From: an uncultured Bacteroidia bacterium | GTDB taxonomy: Bacteria; Bacteroidota; Bacteroidia; Bacteroidales; UBA932 | DNA: 37,852 nucleotides | Direction of reading: 5' to 3' | Assembly (NCBI GenBank): GCA_902785065.1 | Contig: CACZXH010000015.1 | Location: 1-37,852, forward strand | Shown: in pieces, positions 7,323-37,285 of the stretch | Numbering within the stretch: the stretch's first letter is position 1 | Layout of the letters: each line of letters starts with the position of its first letter | The notes under the pieces: generated by a model | What the model was told of the DNA's origin: nothing | Seen by the model: only the letters and a program-made list of their open reading frames with translations | The model's database searches: none | Made by a program: the position numbers and the translations under genes

Positions 7323-7343
7323 ACCGGCCGGTTTACTTCTTTT
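7312..7343. terminator. Bidirectional terminator, perfect 32-base palindrome
   Basis: The sequence AAAAGAAGTAAACCGG followed directly by its exact reverse complement gives a 16-bp stem with A-runs on one side and T-runs on the other, so it can end transcription in both directions. It contains the stop codons of both convergent genes (TAA at 7320-7322, and 7335-7333 on the minus strand). Confidence 0.85.
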
Positions 7344-7770
7344 CAGTTTTCATCGGGTCGGGAATCACCGCGAACGTGAGTTTCCCGCGGCAGCATAGCT
7401 TGCCGCCTACTTCCAGTTTGGCCGAGCAGTGGAAGATGCCGGCCTTGTTCTCGTCGATCCGGCAGGTGACTTCGCACAGGTCGCCCGGGCGGACCGTGTT
7501 CTTGAACTTGACGTCGTCGATGCCGCGGTAGACGGCCAGGTTGCCCGGCAGCACCTCGAGCATCAGGCGGGTGCAGCTCTGGGCCATGATCTCGCAGAGG
7601 ATGACGCCCGGAACCATCGGGTTTCCGGGGAAATGGCCCCGGCAGAAGAATTCGTCGTCACGGATGCGATACTGACCGTGACCGGTCCCGTCCGGGTCCA
7701 TCCACACCTCGTCAATGAGGAGCATGGGTTCCCGGTGGGGAATATGCTGCATGATCTCTTCTCTGTTCAT
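7333..7770 (-). CDS. fabZ: 3-hydroxyacyl-ACP dehydratase (FabZ type)
   Basis: A 145-residue single hot-dog-fold enzyme that dehydrates 3-hydroxyacyl-ACP to trans-2-enoyl-ACP in fatty acid elongation. The catalytic pair is visible: His46 in CRGHFPGNPMVPG and Glu60 in VILCEIMAQ. The N-terminus MNREEIMQHIPHREPMLLID is the usual FabZ opening, and the ATG at 7770 is one base after the fabF stop, so the two genes are translationally coupled. It is the last gene of the fabF-fabZ unit. The gene could instead be called a FabA/FabZ-like dehydratase, but it lacks FabA isomerase features. Confidence 0.9.
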   Translation of the reverse strand: MNREEIMQHIPHREPMLLIDEVWMDPDGTGHGQYRIRDDEFFCRGHFPGNPMVPGVILCEIMAQSCTRLMLEVLPGNLAVYRGIDDVKFKNTVRPGDLCEVTCRIDENKAGIFHCSAKLEVGGKLCCRGKLTFAVIPDPMKTEKK

Positions 7771-7771
7771 C

Positions 7772-9028
7772 TTATTCGGAATACTTGCGGAAAGCAACGC
7801 AGGCGTCGTGTCCGCCGAAGCCGAGGGAGTCGGAGATGCCGATGGTGATGTCGCTCTTCACGGCGACGTTCGGCGTGTAGTCCAGGTCGCATTCCGGATC
7901 CGGGCAGTCCAGGTTGATGGTCGGCGGGATGATGCCGTCCCGGAGGGCCAGGATGGTGGCGATCGCCTCCGCGGCGCCGGCAGCGCCGAACATATGGCCG
8001 GTCATGGACTTGATGGAACTGATATGGGCCTTGTAGGCATAGTCGCCGAGGGCCACCTTGTAGGCGATGGTTTCAGCGATGTCGTTCAGATGCGTGCCCG
8101 TGCCGTGGGCATTGATGTAGAGGTTGTCTTTCTCCGGGTCGAAACCGGCTTCCTCCAGGGCGAGCTGGATGGCCCGGGCCTGGGTGCTGCCGTCCGGACG
8201 CGGTGCGGTGGCGTGGTATGCGTCGCAGGTATTGCCGTAGCCCACCATTTCGCCATAAATCTTCGCGCCGCGCGCGAGGGCGTGGTCCAGGGACTCGAGA
8301 ATGAGGACGGCGGCGCCGTCGCCCATGACGAAGCCCTGCCGGTTCGCGTTGAACGGGAGGGACGCGTATTTGGGATCCGTGGCGCGGGAAAGGGCCTTCG
8401 CATTGGCGAAACCGGCCACGCCGATCGGAATGGAGGCGTGTTCGGAGCCGCCGGCGATAATGGCGTCGGCATAGCCATGCCGGACGGCACGGAACGCCTC
8501 ACCGAGGCAGTGCGAAGAGGTGGCGCAGGCGGTGACGATGTCCAGGCACGGGCCTTTGGCCTGGTGCTTGATGGCGATGTGGCCGGCCGCGATGTTGGAG
8601 ATCATCGTCGGAATGAACAACGGGGAAACCCACTTGCCGGTCGGGTCCTCGACCATCTTGGCCGTCTCCCGGTACTGGATCTCAAAGCCGCCGATGCCGG
8701 AGCCCACGTAGACGCCGAGGCGGAACGGGTCGATGTTCATCTCCTCGCCTTCGGTTTTCAGGCCGGAAGCCTCCATGGCCTGCCAGGCGGCCGCCATGGC
8801 GAACTGGGTGAACTTGTCCTGCTTGCGGACGAAGGCCTTGTCCATATCATAACGCTCCGGGTCGAAGTCCTTGACCTTGCCGGCGATCGTGACGGGCATG
8901 TCCTTGAAGTCCTCGACGTAGTCGATGCCGCAGACGCCGTCCACGAGGTTCTTCCAATACGTATCAAGATCATTTCCCACGGAGGAAATGATGCCCATGC
9001 CGGTGATAACTACTCTTTTCGGTTCCAT
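7772..9028 (-). CDS. fabF: 3-oxoacyl-ACP synthase II
   Basis: The 418-residue condensing enzyme extends acyl-ACP by two carbons using malonyl-ACP. The Cys-His-His triad is intact: Cys168 in TACATSSH, His in INAHGTGTHLND and His in KSMTGHMFGAAG. The start MEPKRVVITGMG at 9028 matches the family's first beta strand and lies 20 bases after a TATATTTG element. A longer in-frame extension would run through that promoter and is rejected. It sits downstream of fabH with its own promoter and upstream of fabZ. Confidence 0.95.
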   Translation of the reverse strand: MEPKRVVITGMGIISSVGNDLDTYWKNLVDGVCGIDYVEDFKDMPVTIAGKVKDFDPERYDMDKAFVRKQDKFTQFAMAAAWQAMEASGLKTEGEEMNIDPFRLGVYVGSGIGGFEIQYRETAKMVEDPTGKWVSPLFIPTMISNIAAGHIAIKHQAKGPCLDIVTACATSSHCLGEAFRAVRHGYADAIIAGGSEHASIPIGVAGFANAKALSRATDPKYASLPFNANRQGFVMGDGAAVLILESLDHALARGAKIYGEMVGYGNTCDAYHATAPRPDGSTQARAIQLALEEAGFDPEKDNLYINAHGTGTHLNDIAETIAYKVALGDYAYKAHISSIKSMTGHMFGAAGAAEAIATILALRDGIIPPTINLDCPDPECDLDYTPNVAVKSDITIGISDSLGFGGHDACVAFRKYSE

Positions 9029-9071: not shown

Positions 9072-10019
9072 TTACCACTCAACGAGGGCCGCCGCGGACA
9101 GGAGCCCTGCGCCGAACGCGCTGAATATCAATTTATCTCCGGATTTGAAAAGTCCCTTCCGCTTGCACTCGTCCAGCAGGATCGGACAGGAAGCGGACGA
9201 CGAATTCCCATGGTCCGCAATGTTGGTCGGGAACTTGTCTTCCGGGACGCCGAGGCGGTTCCGGATTCCTTCCACGATGCGGAGGTTCGCCTGATGGATC
9301 ATGTAATAATCGACGTCATCCACGCCCAGGCCGGCTTCCGCGAGGACCGCCCGGATATCGTCCACGGAGGCGGTGACGGCGAAGCGGAACACTTCCCGTC
9401 CCTGCATCTGCAGGGGGACGCCGGACTCGGTCTTGGTGACGAACGGCGTGGGTTCCAGCGGCCGGAACTGCCAGATCTTGTCCGGATCGGGCCGGGCGCC
9501 GATCCGGATGGACCGGACCCCCTCCCCTTCCGAAAGGACGACGGCCCCGGCTCCATCCCCGAACAGGACGCAGGTGGCGCGGTCCTGCCAGGAGGTCATC
9601 CGGCTGGGCTCCTCGGCGCAGACGATGAGCACGTTCTTCACCTTCCCCACCTTGAAGTAGGAATCGGCGATGTCCAGGGCATAGATGAAGCCCGGGCAGG
9701 CGCAGTTTATGTCAATGCAGGGGCAGTGCAGGCCCACGGCCGCGGCGATAATGCATCCCAGGCCCGGGGTCATATACTCGTTGACCACATTGGAACATAG
9801 CAGGAGGTCGATGTCCTCCGGCTTCTTGCCGGCGTCGGCCAGGGCCTTCAAGGCGGCGTCGCGGCCCAGGTCCTCCAGCCGTTCGTCGGAAATGACGTGG
9901 CGGGAACGGATGCCCGTCCGGGTCACGATCCATTCGTCGGTCGTGTCCAGGAAGCCCTCCAGGTCGGCGTTGGTGACCACCTTCCGCGGCAGGGCGCTTC
10001 CGGTACCGATAATCTTCAT
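9072..10019 (-). CDS. fabH: 3-oxoacyl-ACP synthase III
   Basis: 315 residues; starts fatty acid synthesis by condensing an acyl-CoA with malonyl-ACP. The catalytic Cys108 is in INCACPGF, the catalytic His in YMIHQANLRI and the Asn in HGNSSSAS. The more common motif is DLNAACAGF, so the proline after the cysteine is a small departure that may relate to primer choice (inference). The start MKIIGTGSALP at 10019 follows a TACATTTG element by 26 bases; the upstream in-frame extension crosses the promoter and is not used. It is divergent from the LytTR regulator, sharing an intergenic region with three GKGGCGAA boxes. Confidence 0.95.
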   Translation of the reverse strand: MKIIGTGSALPRKVVTNADLEGFLDTTDEWIVTRTGIRSRHVISDERLEDLGRDAALKALADAGKKPEDIDLLLCSNVVNEYMTPGLGCIIAAAVGLHCPCIDINCACPGFIYALDIADSYFKVGKVKNVLIVCAEEPSRMTSWQDRATCVLFGDGAGAVVLSEGEGVRSIRIGARPDPDKIWQFRPLEPTPFVTKTESGVPLQMQGREVFRFAVTASVDDIRAVLAEAGLGVDDVDYYMIHQANLRIVEGIRNRLGVPEDKFPTNIADHGNSSSASCPILLDECKRKGLFKSGDKLIFSAFGAGLLSAAALVEW

Positions 10020-10045: not shown

Positions 10046-10053
10046 CAAATGTA
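10046..10053 (-). promoter_or_regulatory. -7 element of fabH
   Basis: TACATTTG on the minus strand, 26 bases before the fabH ATG. No -33 TTG is visible. The nearest GTGGCGAA box begins 30 bases upstream of the element, the same distance as in the buk promoter. Confidence 0.65.
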
Positions 10054-10082
10054 GGCCGACGAAACCGATTTATGAAATAAAA

Positions 10083-10141
10083 GTGGCGAAAACGGCCCCG
10101 CGCGGGTGCAACTGGGGCGAAATCGCGAAAAAAGGGGCGAA
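10083..10141 (+). promoter_or_regulatory. Cluster of three GKGGCGAA boxes (fabH / LytTR regulator)
   Basis: Three copies of an 8-base box occur on the plus strand: GTGGCGAA at 10083-10090, GGGGCGAA at 10114-10121 and GGGGCGAA at 10134-10141. The last two are exactly 20 bases apart. The third ends seven bases before a -7 element for the LytTR gene, where a -33 element would normally be. Direct repeats spaced two helical turns apart are typical of LytTR-domain binding sites, so autoregulation by the adjacent gene is plausible but inferred. Confidence 0.6.
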
Positions 10142-10148
10142 ATATCGG

Positions 10149-10166
10149 TAATTTTGCGTATTTTTG
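10149..10166 (+). promoter_or_regulatory. Two overlapping -7 candidates for the LytTR regulator
   Basis: TAATTTTG at 10149-10156 and TATTTTTG at 10159-10166 both fit TAnnTTTG, 21 and 11 bases before the ATG at 10178. The first has nearly the same distance to its third GGGGCGAA box (15 bases start to start) as the carbonic anhydrase promoter (16). Confidence 0.6.
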
Positions 10167-10177
10167 TATTCCTTGCA

Positions 10178-11053
10178 ATGGAAGAAGGTAAGAAGAAATA
10201 TATCCCCGGTTACCTGCGGGAGCGCTACCAGTTGCTGGGCACGGTCACTTTCGCCGCCCTGTTTTCGGTGGTCTTCCTGCTCGTAAGCATCCCCTTCTCC
10301 AACAACGCGTGGTTCCGCCTCGGGAACAGCACCTTCTTCGGCTTCACCGCGATATTCGCCTTCCTATCGCTGTCCATCCTCATCGTCAGCCGCGTGGTTA
10401 TGTACAAGACCCGGAACCGTCTGCGGATGACCTACTGGGGCTACACGGCCTGGTGCCTGGCGGAAATCTTCCTGATCACCACCCTGTACACCATCTTCAC
10501 GGTAACCATCGCCCAGCCCGAGGACCAGAACGGGCTCGTCATTTTCCTGCACGCCCTTGTGTACGCCTTCGTGTGCCTGGGCGTTCCCTTCCTCATCGCG
10601 GGCATGTTCTTCACGATCATCGACCAGAACCGGACCATCCGGCTGATGAACATGCACGACGTCGTGACGGAAGAGACCCCCGACGAAGGTGCCACCGACC
10701 AGAAATTCACCCTCTTCGACAACAACGGCGTCCTCAAGCTTTCCGTCTCCAGCGCGAACCTCTACTACGTGGAGGCGGACGACAACTATATCAAAGTGTG
10801 GTACTCTGACAACAAAGGCGACCTCCAGACCTACATGCTCCGCTGCCGCCTGAAGACGGTGGAAGAGAGTTTCGCGGGCTCGGACCTCCTCCGCTGCCAC
10901 CGCAAGTTCATCGTGAACATGGCCAAAGTCAAGGTACTCCAGAAGGTGGGCGCCACCTACGAAATCACCCTCGACAACGAGGCCATCGCCCCGATACCGG
11001 TCACGAAGACCTATATCGAGGACGTTCTGAAAAGGTTCCGGGAAAAGGAATAG
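10178..11053 (+). CDS. Membrane-bound LytTR-family transcription regulator
   Basis: 291 residues. Four transmembrane helices occupy about 20-40, 52-75, 88-112 and 117-145; the LytTR DNA-binding domain lies at about 185-290, with the family hallmarks LYYVEADDNYIKVWY and LLRCHRKFIVNM. The architecture is that of one-component membrane LytTR regulators rather than of response regulators: no receiver domain is present. Start MEEGKKKYIPG at 10178 lies just after the -7 elements; the longer in-frame start would overlap them. The ligand or membrane signal is unknown. Its own promoter carries spaced direct repeats, suggesting autoregulation. The stop codon TAG is formed by the first bases of a REP-like repeat. 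Confidence 0.85.
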   Translation: MEEGKKKYIPGYLRERYQLLGTVTFAALFSVVFLLVSIPFSNNAWFRLGNSTFFGFTAIFAFLSLSILIVSRVVMYKTRNRLRMTYWGYTAWCLAEIFLITTLYTIFTVTIAQPEDQNGLVIFLHALVYAFVCLGVPFLIAGMFFTIIDQNRTIRLMNMHDVVTEETPDEGATDQKFTLFDNNGVLKLSVSSANLYYVEADDNYIKVWYSDNKGDLQTYMLRCRLKTVEESFAGSDLLRCHRKFIVNMAKVKVLQKVGATYEITLDNEAIAPIPVTKTYIEDVLKRFREKE

Positions 11054-11091: not shown

Positions 11092-11547
11092 CTACTCGTG
11101 CGCAGCGAAACGCTGCTCTGCAAGCTGCTCCCACTTCGTGCCGGGGCGGCCGTAGTTCGCATACGGGAAAATGGAGATGCCGCCGCGCGGGGTGAAGAAA
11201 CCGGTGACTTCGATATACTTCGGGTCCATCAGCTTGATGAGGTCCTTCATGATGGTGTTCACGACGTCCTCATGGAAATCGCCGTGGCTGCGGAAACTGA
11301 ACAGGTACAGCTTGAGGCTCTTGGATTCCACCATCCGGACGTCGGGCACGTAGCTGATGCGGATCTCCGCGAAGTCAGGCTGGCCGGTGATGGGACACAG
11401 GGTCGTGAACTCCGGGCAGTTGAAACGCACCCAGTAGTCGTTGCCGGGATGCTGGTTCTCGAAGGTTTCCAGCACTTCGGGCGCATAGTCCTGACTGTAG
11501 GACGTTTTGTGGCCCAGGCTCTTGAGGGTTTCGGGATTGCGTGCCAT
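11092..11547 (-). CDS. queF: NADPH-dependent 7-cyano-7-deazaguanine reductase
   Basis: A 151-residue short (unimodal) QueF. It reduces the nitrile of preQ0 to the aminomethyl group of preQ1 in tRNA queuosine synthesis. Cys51 in [13 protein letters not shown] forms the thioimide with substrate, and [13 protein letters not shown] is the QueF signature that binds NADPH. It starts one base after the prfA stop and has no promoter of its own, so it is likely co-transcribed with prfA. No other queuosine gene is present in the window. Confidence 0.95.
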
Positions 11548-32349: not shown

Positions 32350-33474
32350 TTATTCGTCCAGCAGCCGCTCTTTGTCATACCGGTGGACCTTCGTTTCACC
32401 GGCGAGGATGAGGTAGCCGTTTTCGGCGAGGGAGTCGAGCTCGTTCTCGCCAGGATAGACTTCGGTGGGGGCGATGAAGGCAGTGCGGCGGCGGATGTCG
32501 GCGACGATACGGCTGTCCTTGGCGATGCCGCCGGTGAGGAGGATGACATCGACCTGTCCGTCGACGGTGGCGGCGAGGGAGGCGATGTATTTCGCGACGT
32601 TCAGGCCGAAGGCATTGAGCCAGGTGACCACCTTCGGGTCTTCGGCGGCGCGGCGCTCCAGCTCGCGGAGGTCGTTGGTGCCGAAGAAGGCGACGGCGCC
32701 GCCCCGGCCCAGCACACGGTGTTTCACCTCCCGCTCGGACAGGCCGCTGCGGAAACACATTTCAATCAAGGGAAAAGCCGGGCAGGAGCCGGCGCGTTCC
32801 GGGGTGAAGGGGCCGTCGCCGCCCAAACCGTTGTTCGTGTCAATGACCTTTCCGTGCTGGTGCAGGGTGACGGTGATGCCGCCGCCCATATGGGCCACGA
32901 TGGCCGTTATGTCATTGGTTGCATGCCCATGCTCGCGGAGATAGCGGCGGACGACCGCGCGGGAGTTCAACGCGTGGAAGAATGCGCGGCGCGGGAAATC
33001 AGGGAGGCCGCCCACGTGGCACTCCGGGAGCATTTCGTCCGCCATCGGCGGGTCTGCGACATAGGCCATGCAGGCGGGACCGCCGATGCCGCGCTCCCGG
33101 CGGAAGGCCGTCACTTCGGTGGCGATGTCATCGGCGATCACGGCCGACAGGTTGCAGGCATGGACGCCGTCACGTCCGGAAAGGAGCACTTCACGCATAT
33201 CGGCATTGACCCGGTACACGCCGGTCACGGCCGGGGCGAACAGGCCGCCGCGCGCCATGATGATATCGATGTCGCCGAGGCCCACGCCCGCCTCCCGGAG
33301 GAAATCCATCACGATTTCCCGACGCAGGGGTCCCTGCTCCAGCACGCTGTCAAAGCGGATGACCTCTTGGGCGCTGAGCTCCAGATTCCGGACCAGGACG
33401 GTGTTTCCATCCACATAATACCCCACCTTGGTCGATGTCGATCCCGTGTTGATGGCGAGTACCTTTCCTTTCAT
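32350..33474 (-). CDS. buk: Butyrate kinase
   Basis: 374 residues of the acetokinase (ASKHA) family. The N-terminal phosphate loop is INTGSTSTKVGYY; ARGGLFAPAVTGVYRVN and AHMGGGITV are butyrate-kinase-type motifs that differ from acetate kinase. It converts butyryl phosphate and ADP to butyrate and ATP, working with a phosphate butyryltransferase (a candidate is at 36377-37285). Branched-chain acyl phosphates may also be used. It is divergent from carbonic anhydrase, with a TATTTTTG promoter and a shared cluster of GKGGCGAA boxes. Confidence 0.94.
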   Translation of the reverse strand: MKGKVLAINTGSTSTKVGYYVDGNTVLVRNLELSAQEVIRFDSVLEQGPLRREIVMDFLREAGVGLGDIDIIMARGGLFAPAVTGVYRVNADMREVLLSGRDGVHACNLSAVIADDIATEVTAFRRERGIGGPACMAYVADPPMADEMLPECHVGGLPDFPRRAFFHALNSRAVVRRYLREHGHATNDITAIVAHMGGGITVTLHQHGKVIDTNNGLGGDGPFTPERAGSCPAFPLIEMCFRSGLSEREVKHRVLGRGGAVAFFGTNDLRELERRAAEDPKVVTWLNAFGLNVAKYIASLAATVDGQVDVILLTGGIAKDSRIVADIRRRTAFIAPTEVYPGENELDSLAENGYLILAGETKVHRYDKERLLDE

Positions 33475-33500: not shown

Positions 33501-33508
33501 CAAAAATA
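33501..33508 (-). promoter_or_regulatory. -7 element of buk
   Basis: TATTTTTG on the minus strand, 26 bases before the ATG at 33474. No -33 TTG is seen at the right distance; the nearest GTGGCGAA box begins 30 bases upstream. Confidence 0.65.
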
Positions 33509-33537
33509 CCCACCCTCGCGCGTTCCTCCATAAAAGA

Positions 33538-33585
33538 GTGGCGAACTGCGGCGGTTTGTGGCGAAATCCGGATGATGGGGGCGAA
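33538..33585 (+). promoter_or_regulatory. Three GKGGCGAA boxes at exact 20-base spacing (buk / carbonic anhydrase)
   Basis: GTGGCGAA at 33538-33545 and 33558-33565 and GGGGCGAA at 33578-33585: three direct copies, each 20 bases from the next. The third ends eight bases before the -7 element of the carbonic anhydrase gene, which has no -33 TTG. The same boxes occur before the LytTR regulator at 10083-10141. An activator bound here would replace the -33 contact (inference). Confidence 0.65.
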
Positions 33586-33593
33586 TAAATGGT

Positions 33594-33601
33594 TATCTTT
33601 G
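33594..33601 (+). promoter_or_regulatory. -7 element of the carbonic anhydrase gene
   Basis: TATCTTTG, 16 bases before the ATG at 33618. Confidence 0.7.
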
Positions 33602-33617
33602 TAAAAAGGCTACTACC

Positions 33618-34154
33618 ATGATCGACCAAATCCTTGCCTACAACGCCCGATTCGTGGCGGAGAAGGGATATGAACCCTATGTGACCGATAAGTTTCCGGC
33701 GAAGAAACTGGCGGTGCTCACGTGCATGGACACGCGATTGACGGAGCTGCTGCCGAAGGCGCTGGGGCTCCGGAACGGCGACGCGAAGATAATCAAGAAT
33801 GCCGGCGGGCTGGTGCTGTCGGAGACGGATTCGGCCATCCGGTCCCTGCTCGTGGGCATTTACGAGCTGGGCGTGCAGGAAGTGATGGTCGTCCATCACT
33901 CCACCTGCGGCGCCTGCCACATGAGCTACAACGAATTCAAGCCGCACATGCTGGAGCGCGGCATTTCCCCCGAAACGCTCACAGCGTGGGAATCCAAAGG
34001 CGTAGCCGACTGGCTCGAAGGCTTCCACGACACGGAAGCTTCCGTGCGCCGGACTGTCGATGCGATTATGAACCACCCCCTGATGCCGAAGGACGTCACC
34101 GTCCGGGGCTTCATCATCGACTCCGTCACCGGCGCCCTGACGGAAGTATTCTAA
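33618..34154 (+). CDS. Beta-class carbonic anhydrase
   Basis: 178 residues. The zinc ligands and catalytic dyad are present: Cys36, Asp38 and Arg40 in TCMDTRL, and His94 and Cys97 in HHSTCGAC. It interconverts CO2 and bicarbonate, supplying bicarbonate for carboxylations such as acetyl-CoA carboxylase and PEP carboxykinase. The enzyme is short, as in the cytoplasmic clade found in many Firmicutes and Bacteroidota, and has no signal peptide. Seven bases after its stop begins the left 88-base palindromic repeat, which can act as its terminator. Confidence 0.93.
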   Translation: MIDQILAYNARFVAEKGYEPYVTDKFPAKKLAVLTCMDTRLTELLPKALGLRNGDAKIIKNAGGLVLSETDSAIRSLLVGIYELGVQEVMVVHHSTCGACHMSYNEFKPHMLERGISPETLTAWESKGVADWLEGFHDTEASVRRTVDAIMNHPLMPKDVTVRGFIIDSVTGALTEVF

Positions 34155-34161
34155 GCCTCAG

Positions 34162-34249
34162 TGCGGGTAACGTCCCGAAAACAGGGACGTCACCGTCAAT
34201 TTGGTCGATATTTGCGGGTGACGTCCCCGAAACAGGGACGTCACCCGCA
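34162..34249. repeat. 88-base double-palindrome repeat, left copy
   Basis: Hairpin 1: TGCGGGTAACGTCCC, loop GAAAACA, GGGACGTCACC. An 18-base spacer (GTCAATTTGGTCGATATT) follows. Hairpin 2: TGCGGGTGACGTCCC, loop CGAAACA, GGGACGTCACCCGCA, a perfect 15-bp stem. The A in hairpin 1 (34169) breaks one pair. It lies between the ends of the carbonic anhydrase gene and the small basic gene. Confidence 0.85.
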
Positions 34250-34262
34250 CCCCTGGGAGAAT

Positions 34263-34504: not shown

Positions 34505-35374
34505 TCAAATGGAATCCATCAGCCGGGCGGCCTGCTCGTAGGTCAGTCCGCAGACGCGGGCGATCTGGTTGACATGGGCGCTGAACCTGAAGTGCAACTG
34601 ACGGACGAATTCCACTTGCCCGTCTCGCGCAAGCTGGGAGAACTTCCGTTTGCCAAACAAACTTTGGCATAGGTCCGGGATGGCGGCCAGGATGACCTGG
34701 TCCCGGAAAGCCGGGAGATTGTCATCGGCCTCCAGCCGCTTCTTGGCCTTGGAAGAATTCGACAAGAACCAATTCATCCGCTGGGGAGTCTTGAAACACG
34801 CTTCGACGGCCGCGACATCGATATAGTTCTGTGGCAGGATATATCCATCGGCACCGACCAGCCAGTCCTCCGGGAGCGATTCGACATCCGTGTGCAGCAG
34901 ACGCTTGCATGCCCGCTTGGAGAATGCTCCCAACGGACGTCCGGTGAGCTTGACAGGATTGAAGAACACATCGCCTGTCCCCCAGGGATATTGGCTCGGA
35001 TGGGAGCAGATGTTGGCAGCAACGCAGTTCATTTCGACATAGGCGATTGCCTTCTCCGGATCTTCGTCATACCAGGAAATGGGATCGATACGCACATCGT
35101 TTCCCCGAAGAAACTCCTTGACCCCGTACTTGTACCTCAAATACAGGGAGTACCGATGCTTGAAGCCTTCAATGAACGCCTTGGCATCTCTCTTCGAATC
35201 CGCCTTCAGGACGAAATGCACATGGTTGGACATCAAGATGAACGAAAGTATGACAACCCGGCTCGCATGCGCCTGGATGGCGACGAAATTCATCCCCACC
35301 TTGTAATCTTCCTCATCCCGAAACCAAAGCCCCGCTTGTAAATGTTCCGTAGTAATCAGCCACAACTTCCTCAT
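34505..35374 (-). CDS. REP-associated tyrosine transposase (Y1/HUH family)
   Basis: 289 residues. The Y1 transposase domain has the HUH motif as SNHVHFVL (His-Val-His); the catalytic tyrosine is most likely in FKHRYSLYLRYKYG. The segment AIAYVEMNCVAANICSHPSQYPWG is typical of Bacteroidota RAYT-like proteins. A C-terminal helix-turn-helix-like region (FSAHVNQIARVCGLTYEQAARLM) could bind DNA. Such enzymes cut single-stranded DNA at REP hairpins. The start ATG 35374 (MRKLWLITTEHL) is preferred: a TATCTTTG element at 35431-35424 lies 49 bases upstream, inside the longer frame, whose extra 77 residues are translated repeat and promoter. ATG 35488 is the main alternative. Confidence 0.82.
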   Translation of the reverse strand: MRKLWLITTEHLQAGLWFRDEEDYKVGMNFVAIQAHASRVVILSFILMSNHVHFVLKADSKRDAKAFIEGFKHRYSLYLRYKYGVKEFLRGNDVRIDPISWYDEDPEKAIAYVEMNCVAANICSHPSQYPWGTGDVFFNPVKLTGRPLGAFSKRACKRLLHTDVESLPEDWLVGADGYILPQNYIDVAAVEACFKTPQRMNWFLSNSSKAKKRLEADDNLPAFRDQVILAAIPDLCQSLFGKRKFSQLARDGQVEFVRQLHFRFSAHVNQIARVCGLTYEQAARLMDSI

Positions 35375-36376: not shown

Positions 36377-37285
36377 TTATTTCACGCTCATCACCGCAGA
36401 GGCGATGGAGTTGAGTTTCACGTCCACGGAGTCCGCGCGGGAAGCGAGGATGCAAGGCACCTTCACGCCCACGAGGAAGCCGGCCTGGCGGACGCCCACG
36501 GCGAGCTTGGAGTTCGTCTTCCAGAAGACGTTGGCGGACTCGATGTTCGGGAAGAGGAGGCAGTCGGCGTCGCCGGCCACCGGGCTGACGAGCTTCTTGA
36601 TCTCCACGGATTCCTGGTCGATCGCGACATCCAGGGCGAGCGGGCCGTCCCCGATGCAGCCCTTGATCTGGCCGCGGTCGCACATCTTGGCGAGCATGGC
36701 GCCCTCGATGCATGCGGGCATGGAATCGAGCATCTGCTCGGACGCAGCGATGAAGGCGATCTTCGGCTTCGCGATGCCGAAGGACTTCGCGGTACTCACG
36801 AGGTACCCGGCGAGCTTGACCTTCTGGCGGAAGTCCGGGAGCGGAATCACGGCCATGTCGGAAATGAAGACGAGCTTGTGGTAGTTCGGGTTCTCGATCA
36901 CGCCCACGTGGCTCAGGACGCCCTTCGGAGGCAGGAGGCCGGTCTCCTTGTTCAGGATGGCGCGGAGGAACTTGTCGGTAGAGCAGAGGCCCTTCATCAG
37001 GACTTCACCCTCGCCGTCATGGACCATCTTCACGGCCTGGGCAACCGCCTTCAGCTCATCCTTGATGTCCACGATCTCGAACTTGGCGACGTCGATGTTG
37101 TTGTCGGCGCAGACCTTCTTGATGAGGTCCTCGTCACCCACGAGGACGCACTTCACAAAGCCCATGTCGGAGGCCAGGGAGGCCGCCTCGATGGTATGCT
37201 CGTCGACAGCCCACGCTGCCACCATCTTCTTGCAGATGTTCTTCGCCTTGAGCTCGACGAAGAGGTCGTTGAAATTCTGGATCAT
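36377..37285 (-). CDS. ptb: Phosphate butyryltransferase-type phosphotransacylase
   Basis: 302 residues of the PTA/PTB family, in the short form typical of phosphate butyryltransferases. Motifs include EVLMKGLCSTDKFLRAIL (the LMKG CoA/phosphate segment), SHVGVIENP, and DGPLALDVAID near residue 220, which is the PTB/PTA active-site signature. It exchanges CoA for phosphate on butyryl-CoA, acetyl-CoA or propionyl-CoA. It directly follows acetate kinase (14-base gap), so it may act as the phosphotransacetylase of this operon, or serve butyrate kinase encoded 3 kb away. Identity as a phosphotransacylase is firm; the acyl preference is not. Confidence 0.88.
   Translation of the reverse strand: MIQNFNDLFVELKAKNICKKMVAAWAVDEHTIEAASLASDMGFVKCVLVGDEDLIKKVCADNNIDVAKFEIVDIKDELKAVAQAVKMVHDGEGEVLMKGLCSTDKFLRAILNKETGLLPPKGVLSHVGVIENPNYHKLVFISDMAVIPLPDFRQKVKLAGYLVSTAKSFGIAKPKIAFIAASEQMLDSMPACIEGAMLAKMCDRGQIKGCIGDGPLALDVAIDQESVEIKKLVSPVAGDADCLLFPNIESANVFWKTNSKLAVGVRQAGFLVGVKVPCILASRADSVDVKLNSIASAVMSVK

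Follow-up and report, generated by a model that had tools for sequence, protein, structure and literature searches.

Shared promoter boxes are very probably landing sites of a membrane-embedded LytTR regulator of fatty-acid-making genes

In the window, that is the whole stretch of 37,852 nucleotides analysed here, two divergent promoter regions, one between fabH and a LytTR regulator gene and one between buk and a carbonic anhydrase gene, share arrays of an 8-bp box, and these boxes very probably serve a membrane-embedded regulator of fatty-acid-making genes as its landing sites. Specifically, we consider it highly likely that the boxes are conserved operators of the neighbouring LytTR regulator, a protein with predicted membrane helices that would activate fatty-acid and acyl genes and would probably repress its own promoter. 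To our knowledge, no regulator of fatty-acid synthesis is known for Bacteroidales; a search of the open-access full-text literature by titles and abstract openings, with subscription journals mostly outside its reach, returned neither such a regulator nor a LytTR protein tied to fatty-acid genes, and nothing related on Cryptobacteroides regulons. The system offers a concrete candidate controller of membrane fats in Bacteroidales, with operators, geometry and a target list, as well as a membrane-integrated transcription factor with much of its candidate regulon readable from sequence. Moreover, the helical phasing at several unrelated promoters makes it a good model for LytTR action on the Bacteroidetes-type promoter.

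Boxes in the window and in its genome

All six GKGGCGAA boxes of the original prediction were recovered. Three lie on the + strand between the LytTR gene (10178..11053, +) and fabH (beta-ketoacyl-ACP synthase III; 9072..10019, −), which is the first gene of a divergent fab run that continues with a fabF-like beta-ketoacyl synthase gene (7772..9028, −; Pfam PF00109/PF02801) and a fabZ/fabA-like dehydratase gene (7333..7770, −; Pfam PF07977). Box 1 is at 10083..10090 (GTGGCGAA; TTCGCCAC when read on the − strand), box 2, which is conserved in orthologues, at 10114..10121 and box 3 at 10134..10141, exactly 20 bp after box 2, both with the letters GGGGCGAA. Box 1 also has a degenerate partner at +20 (10103..10110, +; CGGGTGCA) that fits 6 of the 8 positions of GKGGYGAW. 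The other three boxes, again on the + strand, lie between the butyrate kinase gene buk (32350..33474, −; TIGR02707 352 bits, cut-off 289) and the carbonic anhydrase gene (Pro_CA; 33618..34154, +; Pfam PF00484) at 33538..33545, 33558..33565 (GTGGCGAA) and 33578..33585 (GGGGCGAA), the last of them 8 bp before TATCTTTG, the −7 element of the carbonic anhydrase gene (33594..33601, +). A gene for a phosphate acetyl/butyryl transferase (36377-37285) is located about 3 kb from buk. Past the carbonic anhydrase gene, the window contains repeated GGGACGTCACC/GGTGACGTCCC-like segments at 34165-34250, and near them, at 34505-35293, an IS200-like transposase match.

We use −7 and −33 as what we take to be the names of the elements of Bacteroidetes promoters. 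These names agree with the promoter columns of PMC6193735. The fixed distance that had been predicted between box 1 and the divergent −7 element was borne out by a script, which measured 29 bp on both sides, i.e. to the fabH −7 at 10046..10053 (−; TACATTTG on the − strand, CAAATGTA on the + strand) and to the buk −7 at 33501..33508 (−; TATTTTTG on the − strand, CAAAAATA on the + strand). The 'ATAAAA tract' reported before box 1 overlaps the weak −33 of the divergent gene, 20 bp from the −7, which is TTTC for fabH (10074..10077, −; GAAA on the + strand) and TATG for buk (33529..33532, −; CATA on the + strand). A TAnnTTTG element is present 7-8 bp after the third box, as had been described; however, at the LytTR promoter this element (TAATTTTG, 10149..10156, +, 7 bp past box 3) may be an alternative −7 and not the one in use, and TATTTTTG at 10159..10166 (+), 17 bp past box 3, is the likely −7. 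In 11 of the 12 closest fabH-linked LytTR orthologues (L238-L248, L250) the first −7 match comes 17-18 bp past the last box, the equivalent of the window's TATTTTTG at 10159-10166, and L238 has a −7 match 7 bp after the last box, as in the window. The −33 TTG is absent at both the LytTR and the carbonic anhydrase promoters.

As a single 8-mer, GKGGCGAA is in mild excess in the window, with 9 found versus 5.0 ± 2.1 expected and 3 of 100 shuffles reaching 9. In the 2.74-Mb genome, exact pairs with a gap of 11-13 bp occur three times and the reversed control pattern not once with that gap. A genome-wide search for pairs spaced 19-21 bp apart had been proposed with the original prediction; exact pairs are restricted to the LytTR/fabH and buk/carbonic anhydrase promoters. 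With up to three mismatches allowed, the same genome has 110 pairs versus 86 for the reversed control. Because such loose pairs barely exceed the control, only near-exact pairs are informative, and loose matches were left out of use with the exception of one array on contig C1 (113094-113141), which was kept because of its two successive 20-bp steps and its intergenic place.

The C1 array comprises one exact and two variant boxes in successive steps of 20 bp, is reversed relative to the downstream gene, and stops precisely 29 bp short of TACTTTTG; its −33 place is occupied by TTTG. It precedes the gene for a 428-residue protein, which was found in 14 of the 18 genomes searched, and two box cores 40 bp apart recur before this gene in 10 of the 14. 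The 29-bp gap was measured by script in the arrays of five relatives; the others have no exact TAnnTTTG, and in one of those the gap is 29 bp by eye. The protein has a sub-threshold Pfam Condensation match (E 0.03, 13.5 bits, cut-off 30.6), and a search of solved structures gave no match. It also contains a motif that we take to be of the HALADG type; together with the sub-threshold match, this motif weakly hints that the condensation-like protein may be an 'acyltransferase'.

Conservation and phasing at fabH-linked LytTR promoters

We fetched 80 named LytTR orthologues regardless of whether boxes were present, 61 of which adjoin fabH. The named relatives among the LytTR matches are rumen and gut Bacteroidales genomes, and judging by them the window comes from Candidatus Cryptobacteroides; in the fetched loci, genes were called by a simple codon-score heuristic that misses genes. 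The predicted conservation of the boxes in related genomes was confirmed: the core GKGGYRA is present upstream of the LytTR gene, within up to about 200 bp, in 61 of 61 fabH-adjacent orthologues and a box pair with a 19-21 bp spacing in 50 of them; as controls in the same 61 promoters, the reversed motif was found in 13 and an antisense box in 12. Equal frequency elsewhere and random spacing had been named as grounds for abandoning the prediction, and neither was observed. The 12,200 bases upstream of the 61 LytTR genes contain GKGGYGAW 86 times on the + and 4 times on the − strand (7.05 and 0.33 per kb) versus 42 and 47 times in the remaining 273,808 bases of these loci (0.15 and 0.17 per kb). 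Phasing holds for all 53 pairs upstream that lie 9-60 bp apart, with spacings of 10, 20, 30-32, 40, 50-52 or 60 bp, and outside the upstream regions of the 61 loci there is one pair, at 36 bp.

The promoter geometry was analysed in the 61 orthologues plus the window, 59 of which were measurable and three without a match. In 51 of the 59 promoters, precisely 29 bp separate the first box from the fabH −7, and the other eight distances are 39, 40, 80 (four) and 100 bp (two). In the 50 orthologues with 29 bp, the letters of the spacer between box and −7 average 43% identity, and the −33 is separated by 20 bp from the −7 and by 5 bp from the box; its place is taken by TTTC or TTTT in 47 of these and by TTTG in 3. 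A partner of box 1 at +20 with a match of at least 6/8 is present in 31 of 49 orthologous promoters; by comparison, offsets +9 to +19 give no more than 3 of 49 each, and +21 gives 9. The same scan peaks at +31 to +33 (13, 14 and 8 of 49), because box 2 sits there in close relatives, and at −14, −13 and −12 (14, 13 and 6), probably an effect of the A-rich −33. From one core to the next the distance is 20, 30-32, 40-41, 51-52, 60 or 71-73 bp, and in one case 10 bp. On the LytTR side, the last box is 5-8 bp (39 promoters), 17-18 bp (13), 25-31 bp (5), 51 bp (one) or 91 bp (one) from the −7 and is, at 5-8 or 17-18 bp, inside the LytTR core promoter in 52 of 59.

Several loci count against a strict link. 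Among the 12 orthologues in which fabF is the nearest divergent gene, eight have it directly adjacent and none of these eight has a box; with fabF more than 1 kb away, a box is present in 3 of 4. Similarly, LytTR orthologues for which neither fab gene was found have a box in 1 of 7 cases and none in 6, and in genome G093 no LytTR gene is divergent from fabH. As separate observations, the LytTR orthologues of L269, L286 and L289 and, by eye, of L057, L058 and L061 are divergent from fabF, not fabH, and show no boxes; in several of these loci the two promoters almost meet. In L376 (genome G174), a divergent LytTR-domain frame, apparently without membrane helices, lies beside fabH; this species retains fabH yet was scored LytTR-negative.

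Box-bearing promoters across Cryptobacteroides

Pairs of GKGGYGAW 20 bp apart were found in 177 of 400 Cryptobacteroides genomes versus 12 of 400 for the reversed control (the 12 counted by eye). We surveyed 142 fetched loci with 146 sites plus three window entries, excluding four LytTR promoters already in hand; the survey covers the 149 entries listed, and further matches exist beyond those. Among the matches listed, 71 of 149 entries are at a gene for an AMP-binding acyl-CoA ligase and/or a HAD-like protein, typically a divergent pair, 27 at fabH/LytTR, 9 at buk (two promoters counted twice), and 6, from 5 loci, before an SDR oxidoreductase gene; also among the matches listed, 36 of 149 lie elsewhere (class Z), and 8 sites are inside called genes. 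In L081, L121 and L140 the box pairs lie, by eye, within an apparent terminator hairpin, and a reading frame adjoins them that we take to resemble TsaE.

All 9 buk entries, which represent 7 distinct promoter sequences, 6 of them with TATG at the −33 place, have 29 bp between the first box and the −7. At the acyl-CoA ligase promoters of other species, this distance is 39 bp in 52 of 70 −7 hits, i.e. one helical turn beyond the 29 bp of fabH and buk (38-40 bp in 57 of 70, 59-61 bp in 9, others in 4), and 32 of the 52 promoters with 39 bp carry nTTG as their −33, at a distance of 20 bp from the −7. On the HAD side, the consensus −7 ends on the first base of the box in 21 class A matches, and in many HAD promoters the box overlaps the −7 or stands downstream of it. 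In the 16 box-bearing loci among HAD loci of LytTR-positive genomes that were chosen irrespective of boxes, CAAAnnTA is found, relative to the box, at 39 bp (7), 81 bp (5), 61 bp (1) or 59/48 bp (1), or not at all (2). Counting against LytTR operators, the HAD promoter of the window's own genome (L353) has no box. The HAD-like protein itself (L109:2031-2861), which has only a modest Pfam HAD match, is present in 57 of 60 nearly complete genomes, and its gene is divergent from that for the acyl-CoA ligase in many loci.

LytTR (E<=1e-40) is present in 293 of 400 Cryptobacteroides genomes. Strict pairs were found in 164 of the 293 LytTR-positive versus 12 of the 107 LytTR-negative genomes (Fisher p 6.5e-17; the counts cover 176 of the 177 pair-bearing genomes). 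Against this association, 129 of the 293 LytTR-positive genomes are without a strict pair; of the 12 LytTR-negative genomes with one, four have it inside called genes. In genomes that are at least about 90% complete, the HAD/ligase promoter box is present in 16 of 30 LytTR-positive versus 2 of 28 LytTR-negative loci, and a box pair in 7 versus 0 of the same loci; against this, the LytTR-negative L338 and L340 retain the box at the same 39-bp place. When phylogeny was controlled for on the HAD-gene tree, the co-occurrence was not significant (4 independent pairs; on average 1.4 changed the same way and 0.1 the opposite way), and we therefore treat it as supporting evidence only. Of 30 nearly complete LytTR-negative Cryptobacteroides genomes, 28 lack a match to this FabH at E<=1e-40, so that the regulator and fabH, its proposed main target, go together; such FabH-less genomes may have another start of fatty-acid synthesis or a distant enzyme. 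Separately, a covariation between the DNA-proximal residue of the LytTR domain (H or N in RC[HN]RK) and the sixth base of the last box, for which the raw association was strong (H with 29 G and 18 A versus N with 0 and 14, p = 2e-5), was rejected as shared ancestry because 0 of 4 independent pairs agreed on the LytTR tree.

The candidate regulator, its proposed action and known systems

The LytTR protein is predicted to have four N-terminal helices (residues 16-40, 51-77, 86-111 and 119-150; hydrophobic by eye), followed by a C-terminal LytTR domain (Pfam PF04397, 50.8 bits, cut-off 22.6), and has no other Pfam match. Its structure model is of moderate quality (pLDDT 75.6, pTM 0.54); in Foldseek searches with it, LytTR folds were matched (3d6w, E 1.7e-5; 4cbv; 4g4k), with AgrA/ComE entries among the matches, and the membrane part had no informative structural relative. 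The protein combines DNA binding and predicted membrane helices, with neither a receiver nor a kinase domain by Pfam, and is thus a candidate transmembrane one-component regulator. Beside its gene there is no gene for a separate membrane-protein partner; queF (11092-11547, −), in opposite orientation, follows downstream, and the divergent fab genes lie upstream.

We propose that an 8-bp box would be one half-site and that two half-sites 20 bp apart, i.e. about two helical turns and on the same face of the DNA, would form the site of a dimer, or part of a higher array. When read as RCCAC-W4, the half-sites are oriented toward fabHFZ, buk, the acyl-CoA ligase gene (in other species) and the gene for the condensation-like protein, with the nearest half-site just upstream of a weak −33, or one turn further, as expected of an activator that touches RNA polymerase in a class-II-like manner. 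This activator geometry is observed at the divergent lipid genes, and from it we infer that LytTR binds and activates there. Facing the other way, the array extends over the spacer or the −33 of the promoters for LytTR and carbonic anhydrase, or overlaps the −7 of the HAD gene, and repression is the likelier action there. On the regulator side most promoters have a box within the core promoter, and we accordingly lean modestly toward negative autoregulation over auto-activation. The predicted membrane helices and the gene content, and solely these, suggest that the membrane part may sense the membrane or lipid state and adjust fatty-acid initiation and acyl supply. Tentatively, and with confidence somewhat short of even, we envisage a single-protein membrane lipid sensor of Bacteroidales that would set FabH, Buk or acyl-CoA ligase (branched or short acyl supply) and acyl transfer, with one phase-locked repeat array activating the metabolic side and damping the regulator side.

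It is possible, with a distinctly less than even chance, that LytTR binds the boxes and also activates its own and the carbonic anhydrase promoters. Both promoters lack a −33 TTG, LRS regulators are known to auto-activate (excerpts of PMC6193735), and the distances from the last box to the LytTR −7 cluster at 5-8, 17-18 and 25-31 bp, about one turn apart, which counts for auto-activation because such phasing matters for activators. However, the box is inside the core promoter in 52 of 59 cases, the half-sites point the other way, and in many HAD promoters the box overlaps the −7 or is downstream of it. The autoregulating LytTR activator of the original prediction is supported in part. The box system is tied to the LytTR gene (61/61) and to buk (29 bp in 7 sequences), and the geometry is strong for an activator on the divergent side (fabH, buk, acyl-CoA ligase); by contrast, at the LytTR and carbonic anhydrase promoters the core-promoter boxes fit repression at least as well, and the candidate regulon is wider and more lipid-centred than had been stated.

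That a different regulator binds the boxes, the LytTR gene being merely one of its targets, appears unlikely to us. Such a regulator could be co-inherited with LytTR, in line with the non-significant phylogeny-controlled co-occurrence, the pairs in 12 of 107 LytTR-negative genomes and the boxes without LytTR in L338 and L340. Nevertheless, the raw co-occurrence is strong, fabH is missing from 28 of 30 LytTR-negative genomes (E<=1e-40), and half-site length, RCCAC core and period match the LytTR repeats in the excerpts of PMC6193735. The least probable reading by far is that the boxes arise by chance or are a general promoter feature of GC-rich genomes; the window's excess of the single 8-mer is slight and loose pairs are at most mildly above control, but this reading is already contradicted by the pair enrichment over the reversed control, by density and phased spacing, by a position that is kept while the letters between drift, and by the recurrence of the same spacing at non-homologous promoters. 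In total, operators of the LytTR regulator remain our preferred reading of the boxes.

Among known systems, FapR, the regulator that coordinates fab genes including fabH in Firmicutes, is alike in its tie to these genes, and the proteins are unrelated: FapR is a soluble protein with an HTH and a hotdog-fold malonyl-CoA sensor, and the LytTR regulator has no Pfam match to an HTH or a hotdog acyl-binding domain of this type. AgrA and other LytTR response regulators carry a receiver domain, in the place of which membrane helices stand here. They share the LytTR fold (4g4k, 4xqj; excerpts of PMC4227749), and the RCHRK segment of the window's protein corresponds to the FhRhHRS DNA-contact motif. 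LytTR regulators, direct repeats and transmembrane LytTR proteins are already known, as far as the excerpts of PMC6193735, PMC10269533 and PMC4227749 go.

Known LytTR repeats are mostly of the ACCACTTAT type, 9-11 bp long, 11-13 bp apart and 10-11 bp upstream of the −35/−33 (excerpts of PMC6193735). On the opposite strand the box reads TTCRCCMC, with A/T-rich bases after it, and resembles these repeats in length, spacing and core; compared with repeats of about 9 bp that are 11-13 bp apart, the array of the window has an 8-bp core and a 12-bp gap. In the same excerpts, the LRS of S. mutans (HdrRM, BrsRM) likewise combine LytTR, ACCACTTAT-type repeats 12 bp apart and a link to their own promoter; however, they consist of a soluble regulator plus a separate membrane protein and target bacteriocin and competence genes. 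Because it has no separate membrane partner gene, the regulator described here falls outside the LRS definition; as to positive feedback, its own promoter carries conserved boxes, which for the most part fall within the core promoter.

The LRS-like transmembrane LytTR regulators of Bacteroides (excerpts of PMC6193735) likewise have LytTR behind several membrane segments and repeats upstream of a TATCTTTG promoter, with 11-bp repeats that are 11 bp apart and 11 bp upstream of TGTA-19-TATCTTTG. This 11-bp offset to the −33 is reproduced at the acyl-CoA ligase promoters, and fabH, buk and the gene for the condensation-like protein are one turn closer. By contrast, the Bacteroides regulators form an operon with an NfeD/DUF2154 membrane protein and have a CCGG repeat core, whereas the regulator described here has a divergent fab run in place of a partner gene, and its boxes have an RCCAC core and a 20-bp period.
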